Of a stretch of DNA of 44,130 bases, positions 11,753 to 13,367 are shown in pieces. A model generated the notes under the pieces. It worked only from the letters and a program-made list of their open reading frames with translations. It was not told where the DNA came from and did not search any database. The stretch is taken from the NCBI GenBank assembly GCA_945901765.1, contig CAMDLO010000012.1:1-44130 (forward strand). The letters are read 5' to 3'. Source of the DNA: Cyanobium sp. NIES-981. Its GTDB lineage: Bacteria; Cyanobacteriota; Cyanobacteriia; PCC-6307; Cyanobiaceae. Numbering within the stretch: position 1 is the first letter of the stretch; every line of letters starts with the position of its first letter. The translations under genes and the position numbers were made by a program.

Positions 11753-11917
11753 GTGGGAGCAGCGTGGGGCGGCCTGGTGGGGCTGTACGACAGCGACGGC
11801 ATGCTCCGTTTCACGGGCCGGGATCCGGTTGATTGTCAGGCCTACGCGGAACTGTTCGGCCTTGAGCAGGCCGAGTACTCCATCGAGTCGATGGAGTCGA
11901 TTGGCCAGGAAGGCTGA
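11753..11917 (+). CDS. Small 54-residue protein of unknown function
   Basis: A short frame from GTG 11753 to TGA 11917 encodes a protein beginning VGAAWGGLVGLYDSDGMLRF and continuing TGRDPVDCQAYAELFGLEQAEYS with a Met/Glu-rich end. Compact mixed strand/helix composition and coding-like third positions support translation. It resembles small proteins I associate with picocyanobacterial genomes, but I cannot name a family. No clear ribosome-binding site precedes the start. It sits between the CYTH gene and the convergent PedR-like gene. Confidence 0.6.
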   Translation: MGAAWGGLVGLYDSDGMLRFTGRDPVDCQAYAELFGLEQAEYSIESMESIGQEG

Positions 11918-11968
11918 GGGGCCAGGCAGGCTGAGGGAACGCTGGCGGGCTGCTGAAGAGGGGTGTGT

Positions 11969-12274
11969 TCAGGCCGGATGACCGGAGTCGTGGCTCGACT
12001 CCAGCGCACAGCAGTTGAAGCCATCGCGGCAAACCTTGCCGTGGTCCATCGCCCAGTTCAGCAATGCAACCCGATTCTTCGCACCTGTTTTGGTGAAGAT
12101 ATTGCTGACGTGGTTATCCACGGTGCGCTTGCTGATCGTGAGCGAGGTGGCAATCTCCTGATTGGTGAGGCCTTCAGCCACAAGGCCGATGATCTCCAGC
12201 TCCCGCTCCGATAGCTCCCGTTCGCGGGCCGGGCTGTAGGGCGGTCTGCTGAGGGGTGAGTCTTGCCTGGTCAT
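11969..12274 (-). CDS. pedR: Small LuxR-type regulator, PedR candidate
   Basis: A 101-residue protein consisting almost only of a GerE/LuxR helix-turn-helix (about 18-80): LSERELEIIGLVAEGLTNQEIATSLTISKRTVDNHVSNIFTKTGAKNR. There is no receiver domain. Cyanobacterial PedR (Synechocystis ssl0564) is a stand-alone LuxR domain that senses photosynthetic electron transport through a cysteine near residue 80; this protein has Cys82, Cys88 and Cys89, so redox sensing is plausible. A perfect 15-bp palindrome lies 15 bp upstream of ATG 12274. Divergent from metF. The PedR name rests on size, architecture and Cys position; other small LuxR paralogues are possible. Confidence 0.8.
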   Translation of the reverse strand: MTRQDSPLSRPPYSPARERELSERELEIIGLVAEGLTNQEIATSLTISKRTVDNHVSNIFTKTGAKNRVALLNWAMDHGKVCRDGFNCCALESSHDSGHPA

Positions 12275-12288
12275 GCCTGCTTCGGGTT

Positions 12289-12303
12289 GTGGTGGTCCAC
12301 CAC
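12289..12303. promoter_or_regulatory. Perfect 7-1-7 palindrome, candidate operator
   Basis: GTGGTGG-T-CCACCAC forms a perfect inverted repeat in the 130-bp divergent promoter region, immediately upstream of the PedR-like gene and about 100 bp before metF. The size and symmetry suit a dimeric LuxR-type factor. The role is inferred. Confidence 0.5.
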
Positions 12304-12404
12304 GAGGGGGTCATCGGAAACGTGGCCAGCGGACCAAACCGCAGCTGCCTGCTGAGGTATCGCTGATCGACAACCCCTGCGTCAAAGTGTAGGCATGCAG
12401 TGGC

Positions 12405-13367
12405 GTGCATGATGGTGGCCCAAAGGGCTCAGGGGACTCGGTTTTGCTGCTTCAGGGAGCACTCGCCAGCGGACGACCCGCCATCACTGCCGAGGTCACG
12501 CCGCCCCGGGGCGGCGATCCGGCCCGCACGCTGGCGGCGGCTCGCAGCCTGAAGGGCTGGGTGCATGCGGTCAATGTCACCGATGGCAGCCGTGCCGTGA
12601 TGCGGATGAGCAGCCTGGCCATGTGCCGGCTGCTGCTCGACGAGGGGCTTGAGCCTGTCCTGCAGATGGCCTGTCGTGATCGCAATCGCATCGCCCTGCA
12701 GGCGGACTTGCTGGGTGCCCATGCCCTGGGCCTGCGCAATGTGCTCTGTCTTACGGGTGATCCGGTGGGGGTCGGCGATCAGCCCTCGGCCCGGCCTGTG
12801 AATGAGCTGGAATCGGTGCGACTGCTGAAGCTGGTGAGCCAGTTCAACCAGGGTCGGGATCCGCTGGGGGGTGACCTTCCTGATGGTGCAACGGCCCTGT
12901 TTGCCGGGGCGGCGGCGGATCCCCAGTCCCCAAGCTGGAGCGGGCTGCGCGCGCGGCTGCGGCGTAAACAGGAAGCCGGTGCTCGCTTCGTGCAGACCCA
13001 GATGGTCTGCGACGCAGCGGCTCTGCGTCGATTCGTGGAGGAGCTGGCCGCCCCCCTCAACCTGCCTGTGCTGGCAGGGGTGTTCCTGCTGAAATCAGCC
13101 CGTAATGCCGCCTTCATCAATCGGGTGGTGCCCGGTGCCCAGATCCCCCAGGCCTTGATCGACCGTCTGGCGCAGGCGCGAGACCCGGCTGCAGAAGGGG
13201 TTGCCATCGCTGCTGAGCAGGTGGCCTGCTACGCCGGCATCGCCCAGGGGGTGCACCTGATGGCGGTGAAGGCGGAGGAGCGGATCCCCCGGGTGCTCGC
13301 CCTTGCGGGTCTGGGTCCGCTCAGTCCGGCAGTGGCGGCGCCCTTCGAGGCGGATCAGGCCGACTGA
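12405..13367 (+). CDS. metF: Methylenetetrahydrofolate reductase
   Basis: A 320-residue MTHFR-fold enzyme reducing 5,10-methylene-THF to 5-methyl-THF for methionine synthesis. Family features are ITAEVTPPRGGDPARTLAAARSLKG, VNVTDGSRAVMRMS, QMACRDRNRIALQADLLGAHALGLRNVLCLTGDPVG, and the late KQEAGARFVQTQMVCDAAAL. The start is GTG 12405; the first dozen residues are not conserved. It converges with the nucleotidyltransferase gene, overlapping by 13 bp. I see no SAM or SAH riboswitch in its leader. Confidence 0.92.
   Translation: MHDGGPKGSGDSVLLLQGALASGRPAITAEVTPPRGGDPARTLAAARSLKGWVHAVNVTDGSRAVMRMSSLAMCRLLLDEGLEPVLQMACRDRNRIALQADLLGAHALGLRNVLCLTGDPVGVGDQPSARPVNELESVRLLKLVSQFNQGRDPLGGDLPDGATALFAGAAADPQSPSWSGLRARLRRKQEAGARFVQTQMVCDAAALRRFVEELAAPLNLPVLAGVFLLKSARNAAFINRVVPGAQIPQALIDRLAQARDPAAEGVAIAAEQVACYAGIAQGVHLMAVKAEERIPRVLALAGLGPLSPAVAAPFEADQAD

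Follow-up and report, generated by a model that had tools for sequence, protein, structure and literature searches.

The locus considered here raises the question of whether a small LuxR-type regulator controls, through a shared operator, both its own gene and the metF gene that diverges from it. In the window, i.e., the whole 44,130-nt stretch of DNA from Cyanobium sp. NIES-981 that was analyzed, the spacer between the two genes carries a perfect palindrome, and the initial annotation had read this palindrome as the operator through which a redox switch regulates its own gene and perhaps metF as well. The reading favored here, with a probability of roughly 0.8, is a plainer one: an ordinary PedR next to a conserved metF neighbor, a palindrome that is coincidental, and another part of the spacer, termed element A, as the conserved feature, likely containing the -10 of pedR. 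The palindrome claim itself fails, and the main value of this outcome is the effort saved, as the palindrome is not worth chasing; the useful remainder consists of the family-wide pedR-metF synteny and the conserved spacer element.

Identity of the regulator and its redox cysteines

The regulator gene and its cysteine codons are located as follows:

11969..12274, minus strand: pedR orthologue coding for 101 aa, stop codon within the coordinates; LuxR/GerE HTH spanning residues 21-75, GKVC-x5-CC motif at the C terminus
12008..12031, minus strand: Cys82-to-Cys89 codons, the conserved three-cysteine cluster; Cys89 equals PCC 6803 Cys80 by alignment

Judged by protein models and alignment, the gene at 11969-12274 is the ordinary pedR of its family, coding for a stand-alone LuxR-type regulator. 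The 101-aa ORF on the minus strand bears out the earlier description of a stand-alone LuxR-domain protein with cysteines at positions 82, 88, and 89. In a Pfam search, its product scored 67.9 bits for GerE, matched at residues 21-75, and all other domain matches were overlapping ones of HTH type; besides these, neither a receiver nor a ligand domain was found by Pfam. Against the NCBIfam PedR equivalog model NF052366, for which the cut-off is 120 bits, the window protein reached 137.2 bits. The passed threshold, the invariance of the three cysteines, and the literature on Synechocystis PCC 6803 together support its identity as PedR. Orthologues are present in 13/13 genomes of the genus and in 131/131 good-quality genomes of the family. 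Additionally, a phylum-wide sample contained 61 PedR-matching genomes outside the family, all of the same class; those listed without a match (20 of 79 shown) fall into other classes.

PedR (Ssl0564) of Synechocystis sp. PCC 6803 is likewise a stand-alone LuxR-type HTH protein that passes the NCBIfam PedR model, and it carries the identical three-cysteine C-terminal motif. Under low light, it is present as a disulphide-linked DNA-binding dimer, which thioredoxin reduces once light is high, with Cys80 acting as the sensor cysteine of the disulphide switch; the genes chlL, chlN, and chlB are activated by PedR, while ndhD2, rpe, and its own pedR-sll0296 operon are repressed (PMC13421787; PMC4361706). 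Its cysteines are found at positions 73, 79, and 80 (PMC13214033). These three align with Cys82, Cys88, and Cys89 of the window protein, and the spacing is equal in the typical PedRs aligned. Hence, the counterpart of the published sensor Cys80 is Cys89 and not Cys82. The cysteine numbering also implies an N terminus about nine residues longer than that of PCC 6803 PedR. The motif GK[VI]C-x5-CC was found in all 44 PedR loci examined from outside the family (43 of them distinct) and in 147/149 inside it; one of the two exceptions is a Lys-to-Arg exchange with all cysteines kept, and in the other one the frame was not read through.

The Cys80-equivalent cysteine present in the window PedR, Cys89, is predicted to be redox-active. 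As regards the redox-cysteine switch proposed earlier, the switch as such is supported by the PedR model, the invariant cysteines, and the PCC 6803 literature, whereas the sensor would be Cys89 instead of Cys82. By homology to PCC 6803, the window PedR would be active as a disulphide-linked dimer when conditions are oxidising (low light), and thioredoxin would inactivate it in high light. Since PCC 6803 PedR represses its own operon, autoregulation of the window pedR is plausible by analogy as well; pedR autoregulation as such is already described for Synechocystis. The genomic setting differs between the two: pedR shares an operon with sll0296 in PCC 6803, whereas it lies head-to-head with metF in the family studied here.

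The divergent metF neighbor

12444..13367, plus strand: metF-type MTHFR gene, probably starting from TTG 12444, with GTG 12405 as an upstream alternative

The metF product scored 162.6 bits for MTHFR (PF02219) and is the sole PF02219 match in the genome. Because its score for the TIGR00676 equivalog (63.8) is well below the cut-off of 293.7, it is regarded as a divergent MTHFR member. Translation probably starts at TTG 12444, as homology to congeners usually begins there, which is codon 14 of the GTG frame.

A divergent metF is located beside pedR in 151 of 155 loci, a set in which some genomes are represented more than once. Of the four loci without an adjoining metF, three end at a contig edge, and only one has a full flank. 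The latter, the sole such exception seen, is a related MAG (LacPavin). Outside the family, a metF within roughly 1-1.5 kb on either side of pedR was found in 0/44 loci. The head-to-head arrangement of pedR and metF is nearly universal in the sampled family (Cyanobium, Synechococcus, and Prochlorococcus), and it was not seen outside. What is conserved is the gene order only; no signs of metF control by PedR were found, and a control of metF through PedR is speculative. In the literature searched, which lacked most subscription journals, no link between pedR and metF was found, and the literature found reports no PedR targets in Cyanobium, Synechococcus, or Prochlorococcus.

Conserved elements of the pedR-metF spacer

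Two further features of the spacer have to be considered:

12385..12396, no strand assigned: element A, window copy AAGTGTAGGCAT, consensus CACTNTAGGCAG; minus strand ATGCC-TACACT, -10-like for pedR
12408..12413, plus strand: element B, CATGAT (CATGAT/CATAGT in relatives), putative -10-like hexamer for metF

On the minus strand, the consensus of element A consists of CTGCC and, directly after it, a -10-like TANNNT oriented toward pedR. In the window's copy, the TAGGCA core is kept and other consensus positions differ. An exact CAYNNTAGGCA is present in 52 of 117 distinct spacers, compared with 0.2 after shuffling, and one with at most one mismatch in 76 of the 117 versus about 6; the consensus was derived from the same spacers that were counted, but the excess far exceeds this bias. 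Within congener genomes, CACTNTAGGCAG is rare (0-2 copies per strand), and mostly the copy sits in the pedR-metF spacer. Many Prochlorococcus spacers fit element A partly or not at all. The distance from A to B ranges from 19 to 54 nt, with a mode of 22, and due to this variability both are considered separate elements. Using a loose pattern, element B was not found in 36 of 111 spacers, and a scan of sequences for sigma-70 and terminator consensus matches gave nothing.

Element A with its TAGGC core is the conserved, probably regulatory feature of the pedR-metF spacer, whose minus strand holds a likely pedR -10. As read from its sequence, it is presumably the pedR promoter; in that case, the palindrome would be part of the pedR leader, about 80 nt into it. 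PedR, or another factor acting at element A, would govern the expression of pedR and might influence metF, yet binding of PedR itself is speculative. As candidate sites at which to look for PedR in Cyanobium, Synechococcus, and Prochlorococcus, elements A and B (12385-12413) are preferable to the palindrome.

What element A stands for can be explained in two ways. According to the first, which is given about even odds, it is purely a promoter, i.e., a -10 with a preferred upstream CTGCC, unrelated to PedR, and the adjacency of pedR and metF is a neutral, inherited gene order. Next to the -10-like TANNNT inside A, this explanation draws on a similar sequence, CTGCC-TACAGTG, found ahead of an S1-domain gene in two congeners; such a copy in front of an unrelated gene suggests a kind of promoter and not a site for PedR. 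The sequence CACTGTAGGCAG is located there just upstream of the S1-domain gene, which diverges from a creatininase-like gene.

The published PedR binding motif, 5'-RWWTRGGYNNYY-3' (review PMC13421787), also speaks for a promoter unrelated to PedR, as it is not enriched in the spacers: one exact match was found across the 117 spacers versus 3.9 in shuffles. The window spacer has no exact match; one mismatch is left at 12414-12425 and 12328-12339, both on the minus strand, and two mismatches separate the motif from element A. Upstream of chlL in congeners, neither element A nor the published motif was found, and the rpe upstream regions gave a single A-type match in 1/13 genomes and no match to the published motif in the 13 genomes. 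On the other hand, the conservation of CTGCC exceeds the needs of a -10, and this stretch is one base off the canonical extended -10 TGN. Likewise, the TAGGC core fits the TRGGY core of the published motif, a weak point insofar as a five-letter degenerate match is often expected by chance.

The second explanation, that element A is a PedR operator overlapping the pedR -10 (autorepression) and close to the metF promoter, with PedR also regulating metF, is possible but clearly less probable. It would account for the conserved TAGGC core and for the metF neighbor retained throughout the family, and the overlap with the -10 fits the autorepression known from PCC 6803. It is weakened by the widely varying spacing between A and the metF-side element B, and by the fact that in congeners A was not found at chlL and was found at one rpe region only, both genes being PedR targets in PCC 6803.

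pedR leaders outside the family

A different sequence is frequent in the leaders of these more distant pedR genes: RAGTANATATACY is found about 20-35 nt before the ATG in 21 of 43 leaders (at most one mismatch) versus 0.15 in shuffles, a count which is not independent, as the pattern was derived from the very leaders counted, and which therefore serves as a lead only. Among the pedR leaders of the family, no match within one mismatch was found. Judging from these sequences, RAGTANATATACY is possibly an operator or a leader element whose place was taken by another one where pedR adjoins metF. As a regulon motif outside the family, RAGTANATATACY was tried and rejected, since its matches give no consistent target set. 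One genome outside the family contains 14 identical GAGTAAATATACT sites, which are probably copies of a mobile element.

A more far-reaching scenario can be drawn for the picocyanobacteria, in which pedR moved head-to-head with metF, swapped the leader element RAGTANATATACY for CTGCC-TANNNT, and a redox-sensing PedR came to control jointly itself and the methyl-folate supply. This scenario is considered a long shot.

The palindrome and other repeats at the locus

12289..12303, no strand assigned: GTGGTGGTCCACCAC, the perfect 7-1-7 palindrome of the initial annotation; lineage-specific, probably chance, within the inferred pedR 5' leader

The perfect palindrome GTGGTGG-T-CCACCAC is found in the divergent spacer exactly at 12289-12303, as had been described; the pedR ATG is 14 nt away, the probable start of metF (TTG 12444) about 140 nt. 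It is the sole perfect copy in the window as well as in the genome assembly. With a GC content of 67.8%, the window contains 15 perfect 7-1-7 palindromes, and the probability of at least one such palindrome in a simulated 169-nt spacer is about 0.022, rising to 0.06 when gaps of 0-2 are permitted. A genome-wide search for GTGGTGG-N-CCACCAC, suggested earlier as a check, yielded no enrichment: nine sites with at most one mismatch were found, compared with nine for a reversed-pattern control. The other eight near matches are all located inside long open frames, which are common by chance in GC-rich DNA.

Conservation in relatives, on which the operator claim had been made to depend, was not observed either. 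The palindrome occurs in 0/12 congeners, though all of them keep pedR and a divergent metF, and in 1/117 distinct pedR-metF spacers, namely the window's own; the next best spacer has four mismatches, which equals shuffled spacers. When the window spacer DNA was compared with 300 family genomes, only short and weak matches were obtained, none of them in a congener, and three weak matches that were inspected look like unrelated, apparently coding sequence. The palindrome is also unrelated to the published PedR motif RWWTRGGYNNYY. An operator shared with metF is therefore unsupported, given its absence from congeners and family, and the sharing concerns position alone.

Hence, nothing convincing sets the palindrome apart from chance, and it is probably a lineage-specific coincidence in GC-rich spacer DNA. 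That it is a PedR operator forming an autoregulated redox switch with control over metF is not credible: its perfect symmetry near the pedR start codon and the pedR autoregulation known in PCC 6803 are outweighed by its absence from all other distinct spacers, a chance probability of about 0.02 per spacer, the lack of genome-wide enrichment, and its location, some 80 nt past the inferred start of pedR and some 140 nt from metF. Equally improbable is the idea that the palindrome adjusts translation as a hairpin in the 5' leader of the pedR transcript: although a 6-bp GC-rich hairpin is predicted there, the leader does not fold better than shuffles (z 0.15) and the element is not conserved.

Another repeat is found at the opposite end of the gene, where a 17-nt tandem duplication, GGCCAGG[A/C]AGGCTGAGG, lies at 11903-11936 just before the pedR stop codon and spans the 3' end of the upstream plus-strand ORF, which ends at 11917.
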